Of a stretch of 32,049 bases of DNA, positions 3,001 through 21,744 are shown in pieces; the stretch's first letter is position 1, and the number at the start of each line of letters is the position of its first letter. The DNA comes from a bacterium (GTDB lineage Bacteria; UBP6; UBA1177; JAKLFG01), in contig JAKQHE010000217.1 of the NCBI GenBank assembly GCA_029573155.1, positions 1 through 32,049 of the forward strand, in the 5' to 3' direction. The notes under the pieces were generated by a model. That model saw only the letters and a program-made list of their open reading frames with translations, ran no database searches and was not told the DNA's origin. The position numbers and the translations under genes were made by a program.

Positions 3001-6000
3001 GGATGAACTGTTCCTCTACAAACGGGCCCTTTCTCAGCCGGAGGTCACCTTCCTCGTCAACCGCGGGGCGTCTGTCGCCGCGGAGTATGAATACTGCGAC
3101 GATGGCAACGTCTCTAACGGCGACGGGTGCAATAGCAACTGCGGGATAGAGACCGACTATGTCTGTACCGGTTCTCCGTCGGTCTGTACCGTGCCGAGCG
3201 GCCTTACCTGCGAGGCCGGTTGGACCTACAACCCCACAACGCAGAAGTGTTATAAATACTTCTCGACAGCAAGAATCTTCACGGCCGCGCAGGCGGACTG
3301 CGGCACCAATTCAGGCAATCTCGTTTCGATGGCCGATGCGACCGAGAATTCCTTTGTTCGCACCAGCGTCGTCGATCCGGCCTCGTCGGGCGCTCAATAC
3401 TGGATCGGCCTCCGGCAACCTGAGACGGCGGTCGGCACGGTCGAGACCTACAATGCCGGGAGTACATATAACAAGATCTACTGCGGCACCACCACCACCA
3501 GCCTCGGCGAAACTTATTCGTACAACGACACGGCCTTCACATGGGTTGCGCCGGTGACCGGCTACTATACCTTCAGGGTCGGGACCACCACCTCCTCCTT
3601 CGACATCTACTTTGCCTATTATGACGGTTACATGGGGTCTTATTACACCGCTGATGCTTACGGCGAGGGTGAGAGCGAAACGCTCTCCTACCAGTATATG
3701 TACGCGGGATACACCAACACGATCTATGTCGGCGGATACAACAGCGCCGATGCCGGTCAGTTCTGTCTTGACATCATCTATCCCTACACCAGCGAGGTTC
3801 CGTGGGAATGGACCGATGGCGCCGCTTATGTCTATGGCGGCTGGGCCGGCGGACAACCCGATAATGCCGCCGCCGTCCAGAATTGTGCTTATGTCCCCAG
3901 CGGTGCCGGTGTGACCACATGGGACGATCTGGCTTGCAATTCCTCGATACCCTATGTGTGCAAGAAAGGGAGCGTCCCGTCTATCTGTGGTGACGGCACC
4001 AAGACCCCGGACGAAGAGTGCGATAACGGTGCCTCGAATGGTCCCTGTGGCTCTTGTACCTCGGCCTGTAAAAATCAGGCGTTCCCCCCCTGTGGCGACG
4101 GTACCCTCTGCGCCGGAGAGACCTGCGAGGACAATCTGCCGGGACAACCGGCCGATTGGGCGACCGGCGCCGATGCCTACGACGGCTGTTTCGAAGGCTG
4201 TGTGGCGGGCTATCATCCGATCGGTATCCACCGGGCCGCCTCGACCGCGCTTAACGGGATCTCCGGCTGGGCCTGCGATCCGGACGAATGGAGTCAGCCG
4301 GTAACGGTCTATGTGGAATTGCGCTACACCAACCAGAACGCGAGTGAAACCTGCGCGAACGACAATCCGTCGAGTCCGACACCGCCCTGCACGGTGGCGG
4401 TCCAGTCATATCTCGACAATTTCCCCGTGAATAAAGTATCCTCCGCGGAGGTCGTCGCCGCCTGTGGCGGTTCGACGGACGGCGGGAGTATCCACGACTT
4501 CGCCCTTTCGGTCAGCGACTTCTCCAACCCGGCCTTGACCGTGGCCAGATCGCCGTACTGGGCGAAGGTGTACGCCATCGATCCGGCCGCGCCTACCGAT
4601 AGTAGACTTAAGCCGCTCAACGATACGCCGCTGCACATCAACATCTGCGGCGACGGTATCGTGGCCGAGGGCGAGGAGTGCGACGAGGGCGCCGCCGGCT
4701 TCAGCGATGAATGCGACGGCTGCACCAGCGACTGCAAGGTGATCCCCGCCTACTCCTGCGGCGACGGCGTGGTCTGCACCAACCACGGCATCATCGAGGA
4801 ATGCGACGACGGCGTAACGAACAACAGTTACGACAAACCCTGCACCGAAGACTGCCGCATCAATCCGTGCGCGTACGGCTCCGGCTGGTACTTCAATGTC
4901 GCCAACGACCGCTGTTACGCGATGACCCCCGGCGGGAGCGCTCAGAGTTTCTACAACGCGCTCAATGTCTGCACCAATGCCACCCAGCGGTCGAACCTCG
5001 TTTCGCTCAACGACGCGGCTGAGGAATCGTGGCTCCGGAGCGTGTTCCCCACCATGTCCACCGCCTACACCATCATCGGCGGCTCCGAGGTGTGGGATTC
5101 CTATCAGCGTTCTTCGGCGAATGCATGGGTCGAAGAGGTGTGGGCCTACCCGGTCACCAACCGGGTCTACTACGGCAACTCGACCGGCCGGGCGAACAAC
5201 TTCAACATCGGCACCTACGACGGGCTCGATATCCGCTACACATGGCGCGTTCCGGCGACCGGCACCTATCGGGTGAACCTCATCCCGTACTCCTCGACCT
5301 ACGACGCGGTCCTGTCGATATACGACTACCAGACCTTCGCGTGGATCCACTACAACGCAAAGGGGATCGGCTCCGGCACCGCCTATATCGAAACGACCGG
5401 CGATGTGGCGCTCACCGCGGGCCACACCTACGAATTGATCGTGGACGGCGTCACCGTCGCCGCGTACAATTACCTCCTCGAGATATTGCAGAACAATACC
5501 CAGCCCACCGACGGCTACACGAAATGGACCGACGGTTCCGCCTTCTCCTACACCAACTGGCTTGCCGGTCATCCGACCTTCGCCAGCAACACCTACCGCT
5601 GGACCGCTGCGAACAACATAAGCAATACTTGGAACGACGGCGGTCTCAGCACCTACCAGTATCTCTGCGAAAAGCCGGGCTACGATGTCTGCGGCAACGG
5701 CTACAAATCCGCCACCGAAGGGTGCGACGACGGCAACACCATCGCCGGCGACGGCTGTTCGGCGGCCTGTGTCGTCGAAGCGGGCTGGAACTGTTCGGCG
5801 ACCTATATGCCGACGCGCTGTTCCCGGTGCGGCAACGGCGCACGGGAATGGTACGAACAGTGCGACGACGGCAATACGACCGCAGGCGACGGCTGTTCGG
5901 CGACCTGCACCATCGAGAGCGCCGCGTGGCACTGCAACGGCGCGACCCCGACCGTCTGCCGCAACTGCGGCAACGGCATCATGGAAGGGAACGAGTTCTG

Positions 6001-9000
6001 CGATCCCGGCATCATCGTAACTTGTGCGTCGAGGAGCGATCTCGTGCCGCCGCAGGGAGGCACCGTCACCGGCAATATCGTCTGCGACGGATGCACCTCG
6101 CTGGTGACCGCGAACAACTGCTTCAAGACCTACACCTGCTCGGCGGGCCTGCCGGCGAACGCCTGCTGGTACAACTGCGAGGCCGTGGCGCCTTTCTCCA
6201 CGACCTACACCTATAACCAGACCTGGAACGGTTCGGCGTGGGTGAACGCCGACAACTACCTGTTCGGCTTCAACGCGAGCCCGGCGGCGAATTCCTGCCA
6301 GTTCAAGTGCCGGCCCAATTACACATGGAACGCGGGCACCTCGACCTGCGATCAGAATCAGCAGAGGGTCAGTTGCGGCGCGAAACCGCGGAGCGACACC
6401 TACGAACTCTGGAACGACGGCGAAAGCGGCGCCAACATCGGGACCTATCTCCAGACATGGGATGGCGTCAGCGGTACTTGGCAGCCGGTCCTTTCGCCGC
6501 ACTATGACGCCGCGATCGGCCCCTGTCATTTCAAATGCGCCGCGGGCGCCGTGTGGGATGCCGGGCTGGGCCAGTGCCGGATATGCGGCGACAACATCAA
6601 GGAGGGTATCGAGGCGTGCGACACGAGCCAGTTCGGCACCTCGACCTGCCAGAACACGGTCACGCCTCCGGAAGGTTCCGCGACCGGCGGATCGCTTTCC
6701 TGCAACCTTTCCTGCGGTCTTATCACCACCGGTTGCACCAAGTCGTGGAACTGCGTCAACAAACCGGTAGGAACGGTGTACTACGGCGGCGGCGATACAT
6801 ACAGTTATGGTCAGGCATGGAACGGCTCGGCGTGGGTGAACCCGAACAATTACTTGGACGGGTATGTCGCCAGTCCGGCCGTGAACACCTGCCAGTACAC
6901 CTGTGCCGGTGCCGGCTATGTGTACGACGGACTTGCCTGCTCCAAATGCGGCGACGGTGTGCCGACCGGCATGGAGCCGTGTGATGACGGCGATCTCCGC
7001 AACGACAACGCCTGTAAGAACAACTGTACTTGGAACACCTGCCGCGACGGCTATGTCCTCACCGGCACCGAGGCCTGCGATGACGGCAACGCGGTCGACA
7101 CCGACTACTGCCGCAACAACTGCTCTTGGAACACCTGCGGCGACGGCGCGCTCAAAGCGACCCCGGTGAATATGACCCACCTGCTCCCCTTCGACGGGAA
7201 CGCGAACGACGCGTCGGGCAAGGGGAACAACGGCACGCTCCTGAACGGCGCGACCTATGTGGCCCTCGGCGGCATATGGGGCTCCCACGGGCTGAGTCTC
7301 GACGGGATCGACGACCGCGTCAGCATCCCGACGACCGGCATGTCGAACCTGCAGGGGACCATCGACTACTGGATAAAGCCGAACGGCTGGAGCGGCGGGG
7401 CCCTCGGCGCGGCGAACCGACACGGCTCCTTCCAGACCATCGCTTCGTGGTCCAACGGGGCGCGCGGGCAGATGATGATACTCGATAACTTCGAGGGCGC
7501 CTTCTACTTCCGCATCGTGGATGAAACGGCCGCTTCGGTCGATGTCTCGTTCGCGAACAACACCTACTACACCAGCGGCAACTGGACCCGCGTCACCGTC
7601 ACTTGGAGCAGGATCACCTCGCGCATGAAGGTCTATATGAACGGCGGGTTCGTGGCTGAGACCGTCTGGAACCAGCCCATAGCGACGCCCTTCGAGTCGA
7701 CCGCCTACATCGGTATCGGCCACGGCAACCCGCAACTGGGCGTCATAGATCATTTCCGCATACTCAATCGCGCCCTCAGCGACGCCGAGATAACCAACAG
7801 CATGTGGCAGTCGTTCGACGGCACCTCCGCCGGCGTCGATTTCTCCCACCGCGCCAACAACGGCACGCTCGTCAATGGCCCGACCGTCGTCGCCGGCAAG
7901 GTGGGCAACGCCCTGTCGTTCAACGGTTCGAACCAGTATGTCACGGTGCCCGACGACGCGTCGCAGATGCGGCTCGGCACCGCCATGACGGTCGAGACAT
8001 GGGTGAAGATCGCGGCCAACCCGGGCGACTGGGTACGCATCGTCGGCAAGAGCGATACCGATGCGTCCTGCTCCAACCGCAACTACGGTCTGTGGATAGC
8101 CAGCACCGGCCAGATACTGTTCCAGATAGGGGGCTCGACCGGCATCTGGGGCAATGTCATGTCGGTGAGGACCGTGACCAATAATGTGTGGCGTCATGTG
8201 GCCGGTACCTACGACGGTGCCAATATGCGGGTGTACATCGACGGCGTCCTCGAGGGGCAACTCGCCTATACCCAGACCCCGATAACCTCGGCGGGGCCGC
8301 TTACCATCGGTTCCGCGGTCGGTTGCCACGGCTATCTCAACGGCCAGATGGATGAGACGAGGATATATCAACGCGCCCTCACGCAGGCCGAGTTGCAGAA
8401 CAGCATCGAATACTGCGACGACAGTAACGGGACCAACACCGACGCCTGTACCAGCGCCTGCGTCGGCAGCACCTGCGGCGACACCATCGTCAAGTCCACC
8501 GCGCCGGCCGAGGTCTGCGACAGCGGGTTCCTCTACAACGGTGCCTACGGTTACTGCAAATCCGATTGTTCCGCCATGGGCCCGCGGTGCGGCGACGGTA
8601 TCTTGACCTTTACCACCGCCAGCATGGTCCTGCGGCTCAACATGGACGAAGGGAGCGGTACCACCGCCAACGATTCCGCGGGAACGGCGCAGAACGGCAC
8701 CATCACCAGCCCGTGGTGGGTCGCGGCGGGCAATCCCTACTCGACCAAATTCAACAACGCCCTCTACTTCGACGGCGGCGCCCGTTATGTCACCATGGCG
8801 AACCATGCAGACCTGCAACTAGGCGCGTCAAAAGCATCGTTCACCGTGTCGGCGTGGGTCAACTTCCCGGCGGGAGCGGCGGGCACCCGGTTCCCCATCA
8901 TCACGAAGGGTACCGGTAGCACGCTGAACTACGCTCTCTGGCTCGAGCCGCTCATCGGCACCAGTCCCGCGGGACATGTTTCGTTCGTGTTCCATCCCGA

Positions 9001-10123: not shown

Positions 10124-10188
10124 CGTAGAGTATGAAAGGGTTTAGGTATATTGTCGTTTGTTCAACAACCATCCATGAGGAGGTATCC

Positions 10189-13100
10189 ATGTCTTCGCTG
10201 AAACTGTCCCCCCTGTTCCTTCTGCTTCTTTTCGCGGCGCTTTTCACCGCCTGCGAGGAGAGCCCCAAGAAAGAGGACCCGTTCAAACAGGGTTCGCTCT
10301 GGGGCCCCTGCTACGATGACGGCACCTGCGACGCGGGGCTCGTCTGCAAGGAAGATGTCTGCTGGGAGGCGAGCGACAGCGATCTCCTGACCGACGACCT
10401 CATCCCCGACGAGGAGGAGGATGACGCGAAGACCGACACCGATAAGGTGGACACCGACAAGGTCGATACCGATACGACCGATGTCGATGCGAAGGACACC
10501 GATACGACCGACGACGATGTCGTGACCGGCCCCTGCGCCGCCGACCCCTGCGCGGCGGTCGAACATTCCGACGGTGTCTGCACCGTTGACGGCGACGACT
10601 ATACCTGCGGCTGTATCGAACACTACTCGTGGGATGGCGATAACAAACTGTGCGCCGCCGACATCCAGCGCATCGATTGCGTCAATATCCCCGACAACGC
10701 TCACGGTATAGGTGACAACGCCGATGGCAAATTCGAACAGGAATGGGACGGCGATTCATGGGAACCGGTATCGTTCTTCTGTGAATGGGTGTGCGACGAT
10801 AACTACGCGCTGAACGAGGATGAGGACGGTTGTATCGGTGCTACGCGCCGAGTGGACTGCGCCGATATCCCCGATAACGCGCACGGCACCGGCGACAACG
10901 CCGACGGCAAGTTCGCGCAGACATGGGACGGCGACAGTTACGAGCCGGCGACCGTTACCTGTACATGGGCGTGCGACCTGAACTACACATGGGATGCCGG
11001 GAACGAGCTCTGTCTCGCCGACACCCGGCGTGCCGACTGTACGAACATCCCGGCGAACGGTCACGGTACCGGCGACAATGCCGACGGAAAGATAGACCAG
11101 ACATGGGGCGGCTCGGCGTGGTTGCCCGCCGCCGATACCTGTACTTGGGAATGTGACCTCAACTATACCGCGAACGGTCAGGTCTGCGATGCCGACACCC
11201 AGCGGGTTGACTGCACGAACATCCCGGCGAACGCCCACGGCACCGGCGACAACAGCGACGGCAAGTTCCTCCAGACATGGGACGGCTCGGACTGGCTTCC
11301 CGGCTCGGTCGTCTGTACATGGGCGTGCGACACCAACTTTACCGAGAATCCCGACGGCGACGCCTGTGTCGCCGACACGCGCCACGCCCCCTGCGCCAAT
11401 ATCCCCGATAACGCCCACGGCATAAACGATAACGATCAAGGCACCTTTCGGCAGACATGGGACGGCGACAGTTGGGAACCGGCGACCTACGCCTGTGAAT
11501 GGGATTGCGACGAGCATTTTACACGGGTCAACGATCTTTGCGAGGCCGATACCCAACGCGTAGCCTGCACGAACATCCCGGCGAATGCCCATGGCACCGG
11601 TTACAACTTTGACGGCAAATTCGAACAGGAATGGAGCGGCACGGAGGATATGTGGCTTCCCGAGACCTTCGAGTGCACTTGGGAATGCGACACCAACTAT
11701 ACCCAGAACGGCAACGCCTGCGATGCGAACACCCGTGAGGCGGATTGCGCCAACACCCTTCCGGCCCACGCGGGTTGGAGCGGGGACAACGAGAACGGCA
11801 CCTTCACCCAGACTTGGAGCAGTGCCGACAATGACTGGCTGCCGACGACCTTCGATTGTTTGTGGACCTGCGACGAGAATTATTCGCTCAATGCCGCCGA
11901 GGACGGCTGTGATGCCGACGAGCGGATCGTTGACTGTGAAGGTACGCCGCCCGAACATGCCTCGTGGAGCGGCGATAACGCCGACGGCAAGATAACGCAG
12001 GTATGGGACGGCGACAGTTGGGAACCGGCGGCCACCACCTGCACTTGGGCATGCGACGAGAACTATTCTCTGAATGACACCGAGGACGGCTGTGACCCCG
12101 ACACCCGTCGCGTCGATTGCGAGAATGCTATACCGGAACACGCGGCATACTCCGGCGCCAACGACGATGGCCAGTTCGCCCAGACATGGGACGGCGACTC
12201 GTGGGAGCCCGCCACCTTCGAATGCGCTTGGGTCTGTGCGTATCAGTACGAATGGAACGAAGGGACCGAACTCTGTGACCTGCGTCCCGTCATCTATGTG
12301 GATCTGAACGCGACCGATGGCGCGAACACCGGGTATTCATGGGCCGATGCGTTCGTCGATCTGCAGGACGCGCTGGATTCGATCGTCGACGGTCAGGAGA
12401 TATGGGTGGCCGCCGGCATCTACACGCCGACCGCCTGCCCCTACTATGTCACCTGCACCGAAAAACAAAAGAGCTTCAATCTCGTCAACCGCCGCAGCGA
12501 CATGATACACTATCGGTTGTACGGCGGCTTCGACGGCACCGAAACGGCGCGCGATGAGCGCGATTGGGCCGCCCATGAGACCATCCTGTCGGGCGATATG
12601 AGCGGCGATGACGCGTGGGATGACCTGAACGGCGCGTGGACCAACCGGGAGGACAATACCTACCATGTCCTGCTGTTCGATCCGCTCCCGATCGAGGATG
12701 CTCTCACCATAGACGGCTTCACCGTTACCGGCGGCGAAGCGACGGGTGAGGAAGGCGAGCAGCGTGACGGAGGAGGTTTTTCACTTTCAAATCACACGGT
12801 TACGATCCGCAACCTGACCTTTATCGGCAATTCCGCCGCGGTGAACGGCAACGCCCTCTCCTGCAACGGTTGCGATGTCACCGTGGAGGATAGTTATTTC
12901 TACCGCAATATCTTCCCCGATGGCACGACCGGCGGCGGCACCGTTTCCGTTTCCGGGACGCTTTCGATAGCCCGTGTCACCTTTGAAGAGAACCGCGGTC
13001 CCGTTGGCGCCGTGTCTTTTAACGCCCCGACCGGCGGAACGCTGATCGTTGCCGACACCGATTTCTTAGACAACAGCGCTTCGGTCGGCACGGCCGCGAT

Positions 13101-14517
13101 ATCGGGCGCCGGCGGCGCGGCAATACTTACCGGTTGTGCTTTCATCGGCAATGTCGGTTATGCGGCCGGCGCGGTGGCCCTTAATAATGTGGAATCGGCG
13201 ATGCTCGATGCCTGCTATTTCGAGAACAATGCGGCCTCTTCGATCGAGCCGGGCAATGAAGGCTCCGCCGGCGCCCTCAGCGTGAGCGAAGGTTCGTTCT
13301 CCATCACCGATTCGCAGTTCATAGGGAACACCGCGTACCGTAATGCGGCGATATCGCTTTACAATATCGGTAACGCGACGGTGCTCGGCGTTGATTTCAT
13401 CGACAACATTGGTTATACGAATGGCGCTCTCGGGGCGCCCACTACCGTTCTGACGGTGGGCGGCTGTGTTTTCTCCGGGAACGAGGCGACATCGAATGAA
13501 GAGGGTAAATGGGGTAACGGTGGCGCGATATCCTGCGGGGAGGGCGCCCTGACCGTGACCAATTCGACCTTCTCCGGCAACAGCGCCTTTACCGGCGGCG
13601 TGATACAGGCCCACAATGCGGCGCTTTCGATATCGAATTCCTCGTTCGACGCGAATGTGACCCACGCTCCCGATCAGGGAGGTAATGTTTCTGCGGATGC
13701 AGGAACGGCGGAACTTTTGATAGAGGGCTCCTCCTTCACGAACAACCTCGGCGCGGCGGTCACCGCGGGCGGCGGTCAACTCGTTCAGATATTCGGCTCC
13801 CTCTTTTCCGGGAATCACGCGGTCAACTCGGCCGCGATCGCGGTGCAGAGCGGCAGCAGCGCCATCATCGCCGATTGTCGTTTCATCGACAACGCGGCGG
13901 ATGCTCCCGGCGAAGGCTTCGCGGGACTCGGCGGCGCGATAATGGTCAACGGGATGGACGACGAGACCGGCGGCCCGGTAGAGGGCGTCGATATCTGGAT
14001 CGCCAACTCGGTCTTTGCCGGCAATCGCGCCAATCTGTGGGGCGGCGCGATATTCTCGCTCCTGCTCCATCCGGTCATTACCAGTTGTACCTTCCATGAT
14101 AATCTCGACAGCGGTAACGATGCCATCGTGTTCGTCATGAGCGATGCTGTCATCGACAACAGCGTCATTTGGGACAAGATGTCGGTCCTTGAGGGCGAGG
14201 TCGGTCCCTTCAATTTCGGACCGAGTAATCCGACCTTCAGTTACAGCGATGTACGGTATAGCGGCGGCAGTGGCAACGACTGCGGCGGCGGTAGCGACCC
14301 CTGCTGGGTCCTGCCGTTCGGCACCGACGGCGGCGGCAATATCGACGCCGATCCGTTGTTCGTCGGCTCGGGCGACGACCCGTTCGACCTGCAAGGCACT
14401 TCGCCGTGCATTGACGCCGGAAGCAACGCGCTGGTGCCGGAAGGCATTGATTTCGACATCCTCGGCGATGCCCGGATACAGAACACCGCGGTCGATATGG
14501 GGGCGTATGAGCAGTAG
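10189..14517 (+). CDS. Lipoprotein with Asp-rich linker, nine ~60-aa four-Cys modules and C-terminal right-handed beta-helix/choice-of-anchor-Q-like region
   Basis: ATG 10189 with SD GAGGAGG (~10177-10183) is a better start than 10132; MSSLKLSPLFLLLLFAALFTAC lipobox; repeats RxDCxNIPxNAHGxGDNADGKFxQTWDGDSWEPA; C-term GDARIQNTAVDMGAYEQ. Confidence 0.9.
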   Translation: MSSLKLSPLFLLLLFAALFTACEESPKKEDPFKQGSLWGPCYDDGTCDAGLVCKEDVCWEASDSDLLTDDLIPDEEEDDAKTDTDKVDTDKVDTDTTDVDAKDTDTTDDDVVTGPCAADPCAAVEHSDGVCTVDGDDYTCGCIEHYSWDGDNKLCAADIQRIDCVNIPDNAHGIGDNADGKFEQEWDGDSWEPVSFFCEWVCDDNYALNEDEDGCIGATRRVDCADIPDNAHGTGDNADGKFAQTWDGDSYEPATVTCTWACDLNYTWDAGNELCLADTRRADCTNIPANGHGTGDNADGKIDQTWGGSAWLPAADTCTWECDLNYTANGQVCDADTQRVDCTNIPANAHGTGDNSDGKFLQTWDGSDWLPGSVVCTWACDTNFTENPDGDACVADTRHAPCANIPDNAHGINDNDQGTFRQTWDGDSWEPATYACEWDCDEHFTRVNDLCEADTQRVACTNIPANAHGTGYNFDGKFEQEWSGTEDMWLPETFECTWECDTNYTQNGNACDANTREADCANTLPAHAGWSGDNENGTFTQTWSSADNDWLPTTFDCLWTCDENYSLNAAEDGCDADERIVDCEGTPPEHASWSGDNADGKITQVWDGDSWEPAATTCTWACDENYSLNDTEDGCDPDTRRVDCENAIPEHAAYSGANDDGQFAQTWDGDSWEPATFECAWVCAYQYEWNEGTELCDLRPVIYVDLNATDGANTGYSWADAFVDLQDALDSIVDGQEIWVAAGIYTPTACPYYVTCTEKQKSFNLVNRRSDMIHYRLYGGFDGTETARDERDWAAHETILSGDMSGDDAWDDLNGAWTNREDNTYHVLLFDPLPIEDALTIDGFTVTGGEATGEEGEQRDGGGFSLSNHTVTIRNLTFIGNSAAVNGNALSCNGCDVTVEDSYFYRNIFPDGTTGGGTVSVSGTLSIARVTFEENRGPVGAVSFNAPTGGTLIVADTDFLDNSASVGTAAISGAGGAAILTGCAFIGNVGYAAGAVALNNVESAMLDACYFENNAASSIEPGNEGSAGALSVSEGSFSITDSQFIGNTAYRNAAISLYNIGNATVLGVDFIDNIGYTNGALGAPTTVLTVGGCVFSGNEATSNEEGKWGNGGAISCGEGALTVTNSTFSGNSAFTGGVIQAHNAALSISNSSFDANVTHAPDQGGNVSADAGTAELLIEGSSFTNNLGAAVTAGGGQLVQIFGSLFSGNHAVNSAAIAVQSGSSAIIADCRFIDNAADAPGEGFAGLGGAIMVNGMDDETGGPVEGVDIWIANSVFAGNRANLWGGAIFSLLLHPVITSCTFHDNLDSGNDAIVFVMSDAVIDNSVIWDKMSVLEGEVGPFNFGPSNPTFSYSDVRYSGGSGNDCGGGSDPCWVLPFGTDGGGNIDADPLFVGSGDDPFDLQGTSPCIDAGSNALVPEGIDFDILGDARIQNTAVDMGAYEQ
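10669..12288 (+). repeat. Nine tandem ~60-aa (about 180-nt) four-Cys modules
   Basis: Manual alignment of nine consecutive units, 540 aa total. Confidence 0.9.
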
Positions 14518-14518
14518 G

Positions 14519-14717
14519 GGCGTGAGTCGTGAATCGTGAATGGCGAGAAGAAAAACCGAATTGTAGGGGCGGGTTCGCCCGGCAACACCCTCCGTCGCTT
14601 CGCGCCACCTCCCTGCGACAGGGAGGCGATATACGGAAGGCCCCCTGTCGCAGGGGGCTCCGCAACGCGGCGGGGGTGTTAATTGTGTAGGGCGCAATTC
14701 ATAGCGCCCTGTTGAAA
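14519..14717. repeat. Composite intergenic repeat: 'gtgagtcgtgaatcgtgaat' + gtaggggcgggttcgccc + ~100-nt inverted-repeat (MITE-like) element + 46-bp palindromic unit
   Basis: Arms AACACCCTCCGTCGC...CTCCCTGCGACAGGGAGGC and GCCCCCTGTCGCAGGGGGCTCCGCAACGCGGCGGGGGTGTT are imperfect reverse complements; last ~46 nt recur at 15571-15616. Confidence 0.75.
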
Positions 14718-14733
14718 GTGTAGGGAGTTCCCA

Positions 14734-15120
14734 ATGCTCGATGTCGCGCTGATCATGCCGTTGTTGAAAAAGGAGCGACGGATACTGGCGGCCTACCTTC
14801 TGGGGAGCGCCGTGAATGGTACCCTGCGCCCCGACAGCGACATCGACATCGCCTTGATGTTCCTGCCGGGAAAAGGCATGACGGGCATCGAACGGGGTGA
14901 ACTTGCCGCCGAACTTTCGCTCATCCTGCGACGCGAGGTCGATCTGGGCGTCATTTCTTCCGGCAATCTGGTCTATGCCCGCGAGGCGATCCTGACCGGA
15001 CGACGCATATTCTCGCGTAACGATGGCATCGCCGATCTGTATGCGGCGACCCTGCTGGGACTCTACGCGCAATTCCACTATGAACGACGGGAGATCCTTC
15101 ATGGCTATCTTGCCCGATGA
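14734..15120 (+). CDS. mntA: MntA-like minimal nucleotidyltransferase antitoxin (type VII TA)
   Basis: LLGSAVNGTLRPDSDIDIALMF matches GSx10DxD NTase motif; overlaps downstream HepT-like gene. Confidence 0.88.
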   Translation: MLDVALIMPLLKKERRILAAYLLGSAVNGTLRPDSDIDIALMFLPGKGMTGIERGELAAELSLILRREVDLGVISSGNLVYAREAILTGRRIFSRNDGIADLYAATLLGLYAQFHYERREILHGYLAR

Positions 15121-15532
15121 TGTGATACTTAACAAGGCCGCCGTCATTGAACGGGCGCTCCGCCGTATGCGGGAAGAGTACGCATTCGATCCGGAACTGA
15201 AGAGTTTTACCCACATCGATGCCATGACGCTCAACATCGAGCGGGCGGCGCAGGCGGCCATCGATCTGGCTATGCATCTGGTGTCGCGAGACCGGCTGGG
15301 GGCGCCGCAGACGAGTGGCGACGCGTTCCGCCTGCTTGCCGAAGCCGGTGTTGTATCGCCGGAAACGCTTCGCGCCATGACCGCCATGATCGCATTCCGC
15401 AATATCGCCGTTCACGAATATCAGGAAATGGATCTGTCGGTCCTGCGGAATATCGCCGGGGATCGGTGGCGATCGCTCGTCGATTACTGCGCCGAGTTGG
15501 GAATAACGATAACCGTAGATCGTGGGAAGTGA
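15101..15532 (+). CDS. hepT: HepT-like toxin (HEPN family, type VII TA)
   Basis: RNIAVHEY = RX4HXY HEPN motif; ATG 15101 preceded by GGGAGAT and overlapping mntA by 20 nt; called start 15023 is too early. Confidence 0.88.
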   Translation: MAILPDDVILNKAAVIERALRRMREEYAFDPELKSFTHIDAMTLNIERAAQAAIDLAMHLVSRDRLGAPQTSGDAFRLLAEAGVVSPETLRAMTAMIAFRNIAVHEYQEMDLSVLRNIAGDRWRSLVDYCAELGITITVDRGK

Positions 15533-15570
15533 GTCGTGAGTCGTGAATTGTGTGTTTGTAGGGGCGAACC

Positions 15571-15616
15571 GGGGTGTTAATTGTGTAGGGGCGCAATTTA
15601 TAGCGCCCTCTTGAAA
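15571..15616. repeat. 46-bp palindromic repeat, second copy (direct repeat of 14673-14717)
   Basis: ggggtgttaattgtgtaggggcgcaatttatagcgccctcttgaaa vs ggggtgttaattgtgta-gggcgcaattcatagcgccctgttgaaa. Confidence 0.85.
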
Positions 15617-15674
15617 TGACGAGGACCGTATGTGCATAGATGGATCGAAACCACACTTTTTTCGGAGGTTGACC

Positions 15675-18600
15675 ATGTGGCTTCTCAGGAACTTTTTGAC
15701 GCTTGTCTTCATGTTTTCGCTCGTTTTCCTCGCCGCCTGTGACGGCACGAAGACGACCCCCGGCACCGATGCGCTCACCGACGGTATCGCGGCCGATGAC
15801 GATCTCATCACCGACGACCTCATCCCCGATGAAGAGGAGCCGGATGAGGCCGACATCGACACGAAGCCGGATCCCGACAAGGTCGAGGCCGACATAGTGG
15901 ACGGCGATATCGCCGATGTCGAACCCGACGACGATATCGTGACCGGGCCCTGTGCCCCGAATCCCTGCGAAGAGATGACCGGGAGCACGGGCGAATGCAC
16001 CGTGGACGGCGACACCTTCATCTGCGGCTGTGCGGCGAATTACACATGGAATGCCGAAGAAAAAGAGTGCGCGGCCAACATGCGGCGAACGAACTGCGCG
16101 AACATCCCGCAGAACGCGCACGGTATCGGTGATAACGCCGACGGCAAGTACGAACAGACATGGAACGGCGAGGCGTGGCTTCCCGCGTCGGTCGTCTGTA
16201 CTTGGGAGTGCGACAATAACTATTCGCTGAACGAGGAAGAGACCGGTTGTCTCGCCGATATCCAGCGGACCGACTGTACGAACATCCCTGACAACGCGCA
16301 CGGCGTGCTCGCTAACGCCGACGGTAAATTCCAGCAGGTCTGGAACGGCGAGAGCGAAAGTTGGGAACCCGCTTCCTTTACCTGCGCATGGGTTTGCGAC
16401 GACAACTACACGAAGAACGGCGAGGTCTGCGATGCGAATACGCGGCGGGTCGCCTGCGTCAACTCCCTGCCCGATAACGCGCATTGGGCCGACCCGAATG
16501 CCGACGGCAAATTCCTGCAGACTTGGAATGGTTCGACGGACGAATGGGAACCGTTGACCTCGGTGTGCGCGTGGGCGTGCGACGAGAATTTCTCCCTGAA
16601 TGACGAAGAGGATGGCTGTGTCGCGAATACGCGGCGGACCGATTGCGTGAGCGCGAAACCGGACCACTCCCACTACAGCGGTGAAAACGACGACGACAAG
16701 TTCGAACAGACATGGGATGCCGGAAGCAACGATTGGACGCCGGCGTTCTTCACCTGCAAATGGGACTGCGACGACAATTATACTTTTGATTCGATGGGGC
16801 CCACCTGTGTCCCCGATACCCGGCCTGAAGAGTGTACGAATACCTTGCCCGACAATGCGTACTGGATCGATCCGAACGCCGATGGTACCTTTGAGCAAAC
16901 ATGGGATGGCGACAGTTGGGAGCCGGCGACCTTCTCCGACTGTGCATGGGAGTGCGATGAACACTACACCCAAAATGGCCTTGTCTGCGATCCCAAAACG
17001 CAACGGGCCGATTGCGTCAACCAAATACCGGATCATGCCTTTTACAGCGGCGCGAACGACGACGGCAAGTTCGAACAGACATGGGACGGCGGGATCGAGG
17101 ACTGGACCCCGGCGCCCGAAACGGTCACCTGCGAGTGGGAATGCGATAAGGGATACCCGATCAATGAGGCGGAAGACGACTGCGTATTCCAGCCGATCGT
17201 GTATGTCAACCATGCCGCGACCGACGGCGAGAACACCGGGTATTCGTGGGCCGATGCGTTCACCGACCTGCAGGACGCCCTGAAACAGGTCATCGCCGGT
17301 CAGGAGATATGGGTCGCCACAGGCACCTATAAACCGTCCCGTTGTCCCTACTTCGACGGCTGCGACGATAAGGAAAAAACCTTTATGATGTTCCGTGATA
17401 CAGGCGTCGATTTCGTTCTGTACGGCGGCTTTGACGGTACCGAGACGACCCGCGATCAACGCGATTGGGAGACGAACGAGACCATTCTGTCGGGCGATAT
17501 TACCGGCGACGATGCCTGGGATGATGTCAACGGCGGCTGGCTGAACCGTACCGACAATGTCTATCGCGTACTGGTGTTCGATCCCGCCATGCCTTCAAAC
17601 ACGCTACTCTTGGACGGGTTCACCGTCAGCGGTGGACATAGCGAAGGCATGGATAATCGGGGTGGCGCCGTTTCTTCCACCAACCATGCCGTTGAGGTGC
17701 GCAACTGCGTTTTCCGTGGCAATGTCGCTTCGGGTGGCGGCGCCATATTTGTCATCGATGGCCAACTGACCGTCGATAACTCCTTTTTCTATCGCAATGC
17801 GGCCGATCCTTCTTCTTCTGGAAGCGGTGGAGCGATAGCCACTTTGAATGCCCCCCTCTCCCTGACCGACTCGGTCTTTGATGAGAACTTCGCCGGCGAT
17901 AACGCCGGTGCGGTCAACTGCAATGGCAATGTGACGATTTCCGGCTCTTCTTTCCTCAATAACCATGCCGCAGGAAACGCCGCCGCCCTTTCTATCGGGA
18001 ATGCGACTTTGGCAACTATCACCGACACCGATTTTGTCGGGAATACCTCTGGCTTCGGCGGTGCCATCGGCATAAATACCACCACTTCGGTTGTCGTTGC
18101 CTCCTGCTATTTCGAGGCGAATGAGGCGACCGACGAAAATGGAAGCGGTGGAGCGATCAGCGTTAACGCCGACTCCTTCTCCCTTTCCAATTCGCAGTTC
18201 GTTGACAACAGCGCTTCCATGGGTTCCGCGGTGAAACTCTGGACGGTCGCCGACGCGACGGTGACCTCCGTCACTTTCACGGGAAATACCGGTTCCGCGA
18301 TCTCCGCCCAAGGTGGTGCGTTGGTCATCACCAATTCTACCTTCACCGACAACACCGCCGCCGTGAACCGTGTTTCCGCCATCGAGATGCAGGATGCCTC
18401 CTCCCTTTCCATAAGCAGTTCGTCGTTCCTGTCGAATGAGGCGGACAGAAGCACCATTAATGTCAGAGACACCCTCCTTTTCTCCGTAAATGACTGTTCC
18501 TTCCAGAATAACAATGGATCGGCAATAAATATGGAGGGAACTCCTCTACAGATGACCGACTGTGATTTCATCGGCAACCATGCCGCTTCCGGAGCCGCCG

Positions 18601-19274
18601 TCAACCCCGGCGATGGCGATCACACGATAACCAACTGCCGTTTCAAGAACAATGCCGCCGACCTGCCGGGAGAGCCGGATGACATTTTCGCCGGCTGGGG
18701 CGGCGTCATGGCCATGATGGGGGCGAACATGACGGTCATCAACTCGGTCTTCGAGGGAAACACCGCGGCCGAATCGGGCGGCGCCGTCGCAGCCATCTGG
18801 TCCACGCTTTCCTTTACCAACTGCACTTTTACCGGCAACACCGACCTTAACGGCGACGGCATCGTCTACATCGGAACGAACGGTCCTGTCAACAACACCA
18901 TACTTTGGGACACGGTGGAAGAGGTCACCACTCTCACGGTCGGAGAGGATGTGTACGACATGGGACCGAGTAACCCGACCTTCAGTTACAGCGATGTCTA
19001 TGGAAGCGGCGGCTCAGGCAACGATTGCGGTCCCAGCGCCGACGAATACTGCTGGGTCCTGCCGTTTGGCACCGACGGCGGCAACAACATAGATCTCGAT
19101 CCGCTCTTTGTCGGCTCGGGCGCCGACCCGCTCGACCTGCAGGCGACATCGCCGTGCATCGACGCCGGAAGTAACGCGCTGGTGCCGGAAGGGATTCTGT
19201 ACGACATCCTTGGTGATGCCCGGATACAGACGGGACCAGCCGGTGTGGTCGATATGGGTGCGTATGAACAATGA
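15675..19274 (+). CDS. Lipoprotein paralogue with six ~60-aa four-Cys modules and C-terminal beta-helix/choice-of-anchor-Q-like region
   Basis: ATG 15675 with SD CGGAGG; MWLLRNFLTLVFMFSLVFLAACDGTK lipobox; module repeats; GDARIQ...VDMGAYEQ end. Confidence 0.9.
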   Translation: MWLLRNFLTLVFMFSLVFLAACDGTKTTPGTDALTDGIAADDDLITDDLIPDEEEPDEADIDTKPDPDKVEADIVDGDIADVEPDDDIVTGPCAPNPCEEMTGSTGECTVDGDTFICGCAANYTWNAEEKECAANMRRTNCANIPQNAHGIGDNADGKYEQTWNGEAWLPASVVCTWECDNNYSLNEEETGCLADIQRTDCTNIPDNAHGVLANADGKFQQVWNGESESWEPASFTCAWVCDDNYTKNGEVCDANTRRVACVNSLPDNAHWADPNADGKFLQTWNGSTDEWEPLTSVCAWACDENFSLNDEEDGCVANTRRTDCVSAKPDHSHYSGENDDDKFEQTWDAGSNDWTPAFFTCKWDCDDNYTFDSMGPTCVPDTRPEECTNTLPDNAYWIDPNADGTFEQTWDGDSWEPATFSDCAWECDEHYTQNGLVCDPKTQRADCVNQIPDHAFYSGANDDGKFEQTWDGGIEDWTPAPETVTCEWECDKGYPINEAEDDCVFQPIVYVNHAATDGENTGYSWADAFTDLQDALKQVIAGQEIWVATGTYKPSRCPYFDGCDDKEKTFMMFRDTGVDFVLYGGFDGTETTRDQRDWETNETILSGDITGDDAWDDVNGGWLNRTDNVYRVLVFDPAMPSNTLLLDGFTVSGGHSEGMDNRGGAVSSTNHAVEVRNCVFRGNVASGGGAIFVIDGQLTVDNSFFYRNAADPSSSGSGGAIATLNAPLSLTDSVFDENFAGDNAGAVNCNGNVTISGSSFLNNHAAGNAAALSIGNATLATITDTDFVGNTSGFGGAIGINTTTSVVVASCYFEANEATDENGSGGAISVNADSFSLSNSQFVDNSASMGSAVKLWTVADATVTSVTFTGNTGSAISAQGGALVITNSTFTDNTAAVNRVSAIEMQDASSLSISSSSFLSNEADRSTINVRDTLLFSVNDCSFQNNNGSAINMEGTPLQMTDCDFIGNHAASGAAVNPGDGDHTITNCRFKNNAADLPGEPDDIFAGWGGVMAMMGANMTVINSVFEGNTAAESGGAVAAIWSTLSFTNCTFTGNTDLNGDGIVYIGTNGPVNNTILWDTVEEVTTLTVGEDVYDMGPSNPTFSYSDVYGSGGSGNDCGPSADEYCWVLPFGTDGGNNIDLDPLFVGSGADPLDLQATSPCIDAGSNALVPEGILYDILGDARIQTGPAGVVDMGAYEQ
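16083..17195 (+). repeat. Six tandem four-Cys modules (~62 aa each)
   Basis: Manual alignment of NIPxNAHG...QTWxG...WEPA...CxWxCDxNY...C units, 371 aa total. Confidence 0.88.
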
Positions 19275-19282
19275 TGATGTAG

Positions 19283-19302
19283 GGGCGCAATTCATTGCGC
19301 CC
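19283..19302. repeat. Palindromic intergenic repeat (GGGCGCAATTCATTGCGCCC)
   Basis: 8-bp perfect stem; same family as 14690-14709 and 15589-15608. Confidence 0.85.
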
Positions 19303-19326
19303 GGTTGACCGTTGCATGATCCATGG

Positions 19327-19354
19327 GGGCGCGACCTGTCGCGCCCTCTTTTTT
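19327..19354 (+). terminator. Intrinsic-terminator-like hairpin (GGGCGCGACCTGTCGCGCCC + TCTTTTTT) just upstream of an SD
   Basis: 8-bp GC-rich stem, CCTG loop, T-rich tail ending just before GAGGAGG. Confidence 0.6.
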
Positions 19355-19368
19355 GAGGAGGTTTTCCC

Positions 19369-21744
19369 ATGTGTTCTCTCAGACATCCTTTGATGGGTAT
19401 TCTTGTGCTCTCTTTTCTGTTCCTCGCCGCCTGTGACGGCACGAAGACGACGAAGAGCGACGCCGACCAGTTGCCGACCGATGACATCGCGGTCGACGGC
19501 GATCTGCTGACCGACGACCTCATCCCTGACGAGGAAGAGCCGGACGATGCGGACATCGACACGAAGACCGACACGAAACCGGACGGCGATAAACTCGACG
19601 GCGACATGCCCGATACCGACACGGTCGATGTCGAGCCCGACATTGACGAGCCGGTGACCGATGATATGGTCACCGACGATGTGGTCACCGACGATGTGGT
19701 CACCGACGATGTCGTTGTTGATGATGTCGTGACCGACGATATCCTGACCGACGAGGACACGGTCCCCGTGACCCGGCGCACCCTCTGCCTGAACATCCCC
19801 GAAAATGCGCACGGCATCGGCGCCAACGCCGACGGCAAGTTCGAACAGACCCAGAACGGCGCCGTTTGGGAGCCCGAGACCTTCGAATGTGCGTGGGAAT
19901 GCAACAAGAGTTACCTGCCCAACGAGGCCGGCGACGCCTGTTTTTTCCTCGCGACCATCTATGTCAACCACGCCGCGACCGACGGCGCGAACAACGGATC
20001 GTCATGGGAGAACGCCTTCACCGACCTGTCGGATGCGATAGAGGAGGCGCTTGACAACAGCCAGCAGGAGATATGGGTCGCGCAAGGGACCTACACGCCG
20101 ACCTTCTGCTTCACCTCGCCGCAGGAGACCTGTCCCTTCCTGCCGCGCAAACAGACCTTCACGCTGAAACCGGGCGTCGGCATCTATGGCGGCTTTGTCG
20201 GTGACGAAACGGCGCGTGACGAGCGCGACTGGGAGGCGAACGAGACCATCCTTTCGGGCGATCTTGACGGCGACGACGCATGGGACGATCTCAACGAAGA
20301 GTGGCTGAATCGGGACGAGAACGCCTACCATGTCATACAGATCATATGGGATGACCGCCATCAGGCCGACGCGGTGCTCGACGGTTTCACGGTGACCGGC
20401 GGGGTCGCGATCGACGAGGATGACGAGGGCATCGAGGATAAGGGGGGCGGCCTGCTCGCCGGCGACAACGAGGATTCGGCCGACTTCACGGTGCGTAACT
20501 GCCGGTTCGTCGCCAACACCACCGCCGGGGGCGGCGGTGCCATCGCCGTGCTGGAGATGTCCCCGACCATCGAGAACTGTACCTTCATCGACAATAGCGC
20601 CCTTGTTAACGGCGGCGCGGTAATGCTCGCCGAGAGTCCCGCGACCGTGACCGGATGCCGGTTCGAGAACAACTTCACGACCGGGACGACCGGTTCGTCG
20701 GGCGGCGCCATCGCCGCGCTCAACAACAGCGCGCTGACGGTCGTCGAGAGCGATTTTATCGGGAACCGGTCGGTAAAGGTCGCCGCCATCGATGCCGGCG
20801 GGCCCTCGCTGACCATAAACTACGGCTATTTCCAAGGTAACGAGGGGGCGGCCGGGAACGAGGCGAACGGCATCGTGACGATGCAGGCGGGCGGGACGAT
20901 CGAGGTGTTCGACAGCACCTTCGAAGAGAATGCGCCGGTGGTCATAGAGGTCAGGGACGCGACGCTGACGGTAGCCGGATCTTTCTTCACCGGGAACGAG
21001 GGGCCATCCATATCCACCAGCGGCGGCTTGGCGACGATAACGGGCACCATCTTCGAGAACAACGCGGCGGTGAACGGCGGCGCCATAGAGAACTCCGGGA
21101 GCGATATGGCCATCGTGCGATGCCGGTTCGTCGGCAACCACGCCGATCTTCCGGGAAGCGGCTTTGCGGGCATCGGCGGCGCCATATTCGCTACGATGGC
21201 GGGCACCATGACCGTTGCCGACACCGTTTTCGATGGTAACAGCGCGGCGCTGTGGGGCGGCGCGGTGGCGCTCATCATGTCGTCGCCGATCTTCCTCAAC
21301 TGTACCTTCGACGGCAACAGCGATTCGACCGGTGACCGGGCGATATTCATGGCGCAGAGCGACCCGACCTTCGACAACACGATACTCTGGGGACTCGTCG
21401 GCCAGCATGTCGGCGAACTCGGCCCCTTCGATTTCGAGGAGAGCGTCCCGCTGTTCCGGTACAGCGATGTAAAAGACAGCGGCGGTTCCACCAGCGACTG
21501 CGGCATCGGCGGCGACGAATACTGTTGGGTGCTTCCGTTCGGCACCGACGGCGGCGGCAACATCGACGAAGATCCACTCTTCGTCGGTTCGGGCGATGAC
21601 CCGCTCGACCTGCAGGCGACATCGCCGTGCGTGAATACCGGCAACAACGATCTCGTGCCGGATGAGGAATATGCCCTGTACGACCTTCTCGCCGCCGACC
21701 GCATACAGAGCGTCACGGTCGATATGGGGGCGTATGAGCAGTAA
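19369..21744 (+). CDS. Lipoprotein paralogue with one four-Cys module and C-terminal beta-helix/choice-of-anchor-Q-like region
   Basis: SD GAGGAGG then ATG; MCSLRHPLMGILVLSFLFLAACDGTK lipobox; TDDLIPDEEEPDD; one module (19774-~19956); VDMGAYEQ end. Confidence 0.9.
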   Translation: MCSLRHPLMGILVLSFLFLAACDGTKTTKSDADQLPTDDIAVDGDLLTDDLIPDEEEPDDADIDTKTDTKPDGDKLDGDMPDTDTVDVEPDIDEPVTDDMVTDDVVTDDVVTDDVVVDDVVTDDILTDEDTVPVTRRTLCLNIPENAHGIGANADGKFEQTQNGAVWEPETFECAWECNKSYLPNEAGDACFFLATIYVNHAATDGANNGSSWENAFTDLSDAIEEALDNSQQEIWVAQGTYTPTFCFTSPQETCPFLPRKQTFTLKPGVGIYGGFVGDETARDERDWEANETILSGDLDGDDAWDDLNEEWLNRDENAYHVIQIIWDDRHQADAVLDGFTVTGGVAIDEDDEGIEDKGGGLLAGDNEDSADFTVRNCRFVANTTAGGGGAIAVLEMSPTIENCTFIDNSALVNGGAVMLAESPATVTGCRFENNFTTGTTGSSGGAIAALNNSALTVVESDFIGNRSVKVAAIDAGGPSLTINYGYFQGNEGAAGNEANGIVTMQAGGTIEVFDSTFEENAPVVIEVRDATLTVAGSFFTGNEGPSISTSGGLATITGTIFENNAAVNGGAIENSGSDMAIVRCRFVGNHADLPGSGFAGIGGAIFATMAGTMTVADTVFDGNSAALWGGAVALIMSSPIFLNCTFDGNSDSTGDRAIFMAQSDPTFDNTILWGLVGQHVGELGPFDFEESVPLFRYSDVKDSGGSTSDCGIGGDEYCWVLPFGTDGGGNIDEDPLFVGSGDDPLDLQATSPCVNTGNNDLVPDEEYALYDLLAADRIQSVTVDMGAYEQ
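19652..19755 (+). repeat. 15-bp tandem repeat (gtggtcaccgacgat) encoding VTDD[VM] linker
   Basis: VTDDMVTDDVVTDDVVTDDVVVDDVVTDDILTDE. Confidence 0.85.

Follow-up and report, generated by a model that had tools for sequence, protein, structure and literature searches.

Between 2 paralogous lipoprotein genes, the window (by which we mean the whole 32,049-nt stretch of DNA that was analysed, contig JAKQHE010000217.1) carries a predicted toxin-antitoxin (TA) pair, mntA-hepT, with near-identical direct repeats on its 2 sides. A sequence-only reading of this DNA had described the arrangement as a repeat-delimited cassette of about 0.9 kb, and had raised the ideas that the pair moved together with its repeats, that recombination between them could excise it, or that it may stabilise the array against loss. 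The question is whether the repeats delivered the pair to this site, or whether they took their present form around a pair that was already there. To our knowledge, the movement of small chromosomal TA modules between intergenic sites without a transposase is poorly understood, and we found no earlier description of the repeat-bracketed TA pattern in the open-access literature, which is limited evidence of novelty. The genome of the window, called G000, has 2.69 Mb in an assembly that is about 93% complete. It is compared with its relatives G001 and G002, all 3 assemblies being fragmented and at least 2 of them MAGs.

The gene pair and its setting

Lipoprotein gene A (10186-14517), the first of 3 tandem paralogues, was delineated as an open reading frame, with paralogy and synteny assessed by tblastn. 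It is followed on the same forward strand by mntA (14734-15120), hepT (15104-15532), lipoprotein gene B (15630-19274), which is a beta-helix paralogue of A matching PF13229, and lipoprotein gene C (19369-21744), a paralogue with the same Pfam match. Across 10186-21744, the 3 lipoprotein genes share a Cys-containing unit of about 60 amino acids, NAHGxGDNADGKFEQTWDGxSW, in 16 DNA copies, and they have beta-helix C-termini; the number of paralogues and their divergence differ among relatives. An Rfam search of window positions 14400-19500 returned no known structured RNA, and scans for promoter and terminator consensus sequences gave no score above those of shuffled sequence.

The predicted antitoxin MntA is an MNT nucleotidyltransferase by its matches to PF18765 (4e-16) and PF01909 (4e-9), and the predicted toxin HepT is a HEPN ribonuclease by its match to PF01934 (5e-22). 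The 2 reading frames overlap by 17 nt, and hepT is single-copy in G000. Class I HEPN/MNT systems are described by the motifs GSX10DXD in MntA and RX4HXY in HepT (PMC7641770). The first of these appears in the translation of mntA as GSAVNGTLRPDSDID, and HepT carries the second as RNIAVHEY, with no variation at R99, H104, and Y106 among 8 homologues. The dN/dS of about 0.05 for mntA and hepT (G000-G002) indicates that both genes are under purifying selection, and suggests that both have been kept functional. In systems of this class the toxin inhibits growth and is adenylylated by the antitoxin, activities that are predicted for this pair and indirectly supported by the low dN/dS. With PF01934 next to PF18765/PF01909, the antitoxin gene first, and both motifs present, the pair is predicted to be an ordinary Class I HEPN/MNT module (PMC7641770), with nothing new in the TA proteins; it is unlike the described systems in its setting only, which is a slot bracketed by repeats and situated between paralogous lipoprotein genes.

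The two spacers as probable copies of one

The direct repeat occupies 14673-14717 on the left of the pair and 15571-15616 on the right, both on the forward strand, and it aligns over 46 columns at 93.5% with 2 substitutions (C/T and G/C) and one 1-nt gap, just as the sequence-only reading had it. The Smith-Waterman score of the left spacer against the right is 39, with a maximum of 18 in 1000 shuffles, and the repeat-delimited cassette of about 0.9 kb is real. The likeness extends farther out, and here too the earlier description holds, in that heptamers and a GTAGGGGCG fragment are found on both sides in the same order. On the forward strand, a degenerate heptamer array (GTGARNN), GTGAGTCGTGARTCGTGAAT, lies at 14522-14541 and at 15529-15548, and GTAGGGGCG starts at 14563 and at 15558. 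The order common to both spacers runs from the heptamers to GTAGGGGCG, then to GGGGTGTTAATTGT, then to a second GTAG palindrome, and ends in TNTTGAAA. There is also a GTAGGGGCG over the stop codon that ends lipoprotein gene A (14514-14522), and the first GTGA of the right heptamer array includes the stop codon of hepT.

In the left spacer, the first palindrome (REP1, 14563-14580, GTAGGGGCG-GGTTCGCCC) lacks one inner arm, the left inner stem, and a palindrome of about 100 bp that we call element B (about 14577-14679, AACACCCTCCG...GCGGGGGTGTT, no strand assigned) is intact; element B is of the same family as the repeats around DUF559 genes. The left 46-bp copy consists of the element B tail, the linker AATTGT, REP2 (GTAGGGCGCAATTCATAGCGCCC), and TGTTGAAA. 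In the right spacer, the REP1 remnant (15558-15570, GTAGGGGCGAACC) keeps the other inner arm, element B is reduced to its last 8 nt (GGGGTGTT), and REP2 of the 46-bp copy reads GTAGGGGCGCAATTTATAGCGCCC. The repeat is a composite spacer of GTGARNN heptamers, GTAG-tagged REP palindromes (GTAGGGGCG-stem-CGCCC), and a longer palindrome on the left only. Since element B is present on the left and survives on the right as an 8-nt stub, the homology is that of the whole spacer with different deletions, not that of one element, and in our reading the left and right spacers are probably copies of one ancestral spacer that underwent complementary deletions, not separate landings.

Separate landings would mean that the GTAG-REPs and the heptamers spread independently, by RAYT-type transposition and slippage, and came to lie in the same order by chance behind lipoprotein gene A and behind hepT. 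These are indeed dispersed elements in this family of genomes, and it counts for such an origin that REPs sit just downstream of ORFs (PMC3733652). Nevertheless, the shared stretch crosses element boundaries, taking in the 8-nt element B stub, the AATTGT linker, and the TNTTGAAA tail with the order of the modules kept. Bracketing is moreover rare elsewhere in the G000 sample, being found for 0/282 genes and for 11 of 18,300 random 0.8-kb windows, and the Y1 transposases of G000 have other ends, so we regard independent accrual as improbable.

REP elements in G000 and its relatives

Members of the GTAG-tagged REP superfamily have an unpaired GTAG tag next to a 6-13-bp stem with a short loop (Di Nocera 2013, PMC3733652). 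The REPs of the window resemble them in the tag, in a constant 5-bp stem with a variable complementary inner stem, in the short loop, and in being intergenic, downstream of ORFs, and found as opposite-orientation dimers. Unlike that superfamily, they are of low copy number, with 18 exact matches in G000, they adjoin heptamer arrays and a longer palindrome, and duplicate copies stand on either side of a TA pair. The exact matches number 19 in G001, 46 in G002, and 42 in G004, versus 1, 2, 2, and 3 matches of a reversed control pattern in G000, G001, G002, and G004, and there is no match in members of the well-sampled genus g4 of the same order. Over 50 distinct copies from the 4 genomes, the inner stem forms 158 pairs, where shuffling gives a mean of 87 and a maximum of 112.

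GTGARNN heptamer runs are as sparse as the REPs and are present in the same 4 genomes, with 0-1 matches to a control pattern. This sparseness, with 18 exact REPs in 2.69 Mb, rules out the possibility, named earlier as one that would undo the cassette, that the repeats stand in every intergenic region. In a 626-kb sample of G000 (contigs from among C1-C84, of which C18 and C21 were known beforehand to hold copies), the GTAG-headed copies are confined to C18 and C21, all of them intergenic and none in coding DNA. A literature search with the repeat sequence returned unrelated primers only. An inverted REP pair (AATCTTGTATT with ATCCTCGTGAT stems) lies at 12280-12338 of G000 contig C93, and similar pairs are found in G002 (C112) and G004 (C75); this recurrence in 3 genomes suggests that some REP dimers have been kept or spread as units.

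Two Y1 transposase genes are present in G000, on contigs C188 and C110 (L033 and L034), with TIRtron-like ends, which are GGGGTCAGTCCTTCATTTTACGG and its inverse for C188 and GCGCCCTGACCCC for C110, both unlike the GTAG-REPs of the window. As described for the RAYT/TIRYT transposases of TIRtrons (PMC3733652), these Y1_Tnp genes lie between ends that include inverted repeats, and in the C188 copy GGGGTCAG agrees with the GGGGWSAS motif. Because the ends are unrelated to GTAGGGGCG, mobilisation of the window's repeats by these transposases is unsupported, and in G000, at about 93% completeness, no cognate RAYT flanked by GTAG repeats was found, both Y1_Tnp genes having other ends.

Genes for DUF559 (PF04480, a Vsr-like endonuclease) are flanked by palindromic repeats of the type CCTCACCC..CCCTCTCC..GGAGAGGG..GGGTGAGG, related to element B (14577-14679). 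Direct repeats bracket such genes in 9 of 10 cases in relatives (L200-L210) and in 7 of 20 in diverse genomes (L212-L237), and within 450 bp of the gene the motifs have about 7 times the density that they have beyond 900 bp. The DUF559 nuclease may mobilise these element-B-related repeats, with the reservation that hits are also frequent among control windows in TA-rich loci (29/156).

The locus in G001 and G002

The order lipoprotein gene, mntA, hepT is kept in G001 and G002 at 86-97% amino acid identity, with HepT at 91% in G001 (L044/L098) and 95% in G002 (L043/L095), and G001 continues downstream as the window does, with lipoprotein genes B and C, ASST, and epimerase. The spacers around mntA-hepT are unrelated among all 3 genomes. 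In G002 the 2 flanks match each other over 99 bp at 96%, and in G001 they have no match to each other. Retention of the pair at the orthologous site with different spacers had been named beforehand as the outcome that speaks against movement of mntA-hepT with its repeats, and it is what both relatives exhibit. What stands of the earlier reading as a whole is the repeat-delimited cassette and the turnover of the array; what lacks support is the movement of this TA pair with these repeats.

The dS of mntA and hepT is 0.25 and 0.52 for G000-G002 and 0.28 and 0.51 for G000-G001, much greater than the divergence of about 4% between the repeat copies, hence the repeats probably acquired their likeness after the lineages had separated. 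The present repeats are then probably younger than the residence of the cassette at the site, approximately speaking, since a repeat of 46 bp with 2 substitutions is short and dates imprecisely, and REP stems may change at a lower rate than synonymous sites do. Repeats younger than the residence did not deliver the pair to the site in the common ancestor.

We lean towards a resident TA pair in a slot whose spacers recombine locally. A HEPN/MNT module would have been long resident in the spacer between tandem paralogous lipoprotein genes, with both flanks being copies of one composite spacer that held heptamers, GTAG-REPs, and originally also the longer palindrome. Copies of these repeat-rich spacers would recombine with one another locally, whether by gene conversion, by unequal exchange, or by template switching. 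Judging from the likeness of the sequences, such exchange would re-equalise the 2 flanks of the TA cassette, and occasionally an entire cassette might be gained or lost together with one copy of the spacer. A repeat-to-repeat deletion would remove antitoxin and toxin together, and our conjecture is that lingering toxin selects against such deletions, so that conversions would be the survivors. The lack of a match between the mntA-hepT flanks of G001 counts against this reading.

The main rival is re-insertion, in which homologous recombination through the spacer brought the cassette and one spacer copy into the site, for the first time or again, in each lineage, from a source such as the DNA of a relative or a circle, each event leaving a fresh pair of direct repeats. 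Its footprint is similar to that of gene conversion. G000 and G002 belong to different genera, and their MntA and HepT are 97% and 95% identical versus 60-77% for ASST, GGR, MFS, SAM, UbiA, and GT, which speaks for re-insertion, as do the AbiEii-like cassette described below, which plainly changes place, and the repeats behind hepT at L051 and L059, decayed 3'-end copies of the gene upstream of mntA. On the other hand, identical position and order in 3 genomes is easier by descent, the TA dS to G001 is equal or higher, some other genes have similar values (Epim 0.26, LpC 0.38), and no integrase, transposase, or circle was found. Among the genomes compared there is also no empty site, that is, no lipoprotein A-B junction without mntA-hepT. 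Horizontal exchange of the TA pair between G000 and G002 is possible, the dS values not separating it from descent, and re-insertion as the explanation of the window's repeats seems to us unlikely.

On a further proposal, mntA-hepT would be a cassette within a sedentary chromosomal integron and the repeats would be attC sites. Chromosomal-integron TA cassettes are likewise small, lie between genome-specific repeats, and are gained or lost singly, so that TA cassette arrays with such repeats recall superintegrons, and 5 distant genomes hold an integron integrase. The window's family is unlike these systems in having no integrase and no attC core in its repeats: no integron integrase over the cut-off was found in G000, G001, G002, and G004, the best TIGR02249 score in G000 being 23.5 bits against a cut-off of 265, and the RYYYAAC/GTTRRRY core pair is absent from every bracketing repeat examined. 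For this family the missing integrase and the missing core refute an integron cassette, and we give the proposal hardly any credence.

A neighbouring cassette that turns over

In G001, an AbiEii-like nucleotidyltransferase gene (PF08843) and a small upstream partner with no family match lie between lipoprotein genes B and C, inside 193-bp direct repeats of 90% identity. The same pair is found in G002 directly behind hepT, between 62-bp repeats of 97%. The genome search finds the AbiEii-like gene absent from G000, where the gap between B and C (19275-19368, forward strand) is one short spacer with 2 REP hairpins, at 19279-19302 and about 19325-19347, the second resembling the hairpin that precedes C in G001; it is the empty counterpart of the G001 site. 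The comparison of filled and empty sites that the sequence-only reading had called for is borne out for this neighbour, whose site is filled, moved, or empty with gain and loss not told apart, and not for mntA-hepT. By these sequence comparisons, the array gains, loses, or moves TA cassettes, and turnover is real for the AbiEii-like pair. The locus is a natural comparison across 3 genomes, in which one TA cassette is fixed with remade flanks and the other is in place, relocated, or missing.

Elsewhere in G000, 52-bp direct repeats on contig C18 (L103, 4673-7931) enclose a canonical AbiEi/AbiEii pair (5913-7234, minus strand) together with a gene for a hexapeptide transferase; immediately behind AbiEii there is a cluster of heptamers and GTAG-REPs.

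Bracketing at other mntA-hepT loci

Bracketed cassettes are found at 6 of 22 HepT loci, where random windows drawn from these loci predict 0.39; with the window's own family removed, the count is 4/19 versus 0.29 (p about 5e-5). Repeat bracketing of mntA-hepT may be general across phyla. The copies behind hepT at L051 and L059 are the decayed gene-end duplicates already mentioned, and several other bracketed segments near HepT loci hold TA genes too: AbiEii-like, ParE, PIN with Phd, MazF, YafQ, and MNT. A tentative idea is that many TA modules form cassettes with no integrase of their own, each composed of the TA genes and one copy of a local spacer or of a gene 3' end. If so, recombination at direct repeats would bring them in and remove them, with their own toxicity guarding them against deletion. 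The window, G001, G002, and several distant loci would then exemplify a single general cassette system able to work with any repeat present. The excess of 4/19 makes this idea testable at large scale.

Two of the loci hold TA modules in series. At L059 (5400-9200), MntA/HepT, a nucleotidyltransferase-like gene, and Phd/VapC form an array with GTAGGGACG palindromes in between, followed by an ORF with no Pfam match that resembles a REP-associated Y1 transposase by eye. At L064 (4650-7614), VapC, MntA/HepT, and MazF-like modules stand in a row, with MntA/HepT between 99-bp repeats (96%) and the MazF segment between 272-bp repeats (82%).
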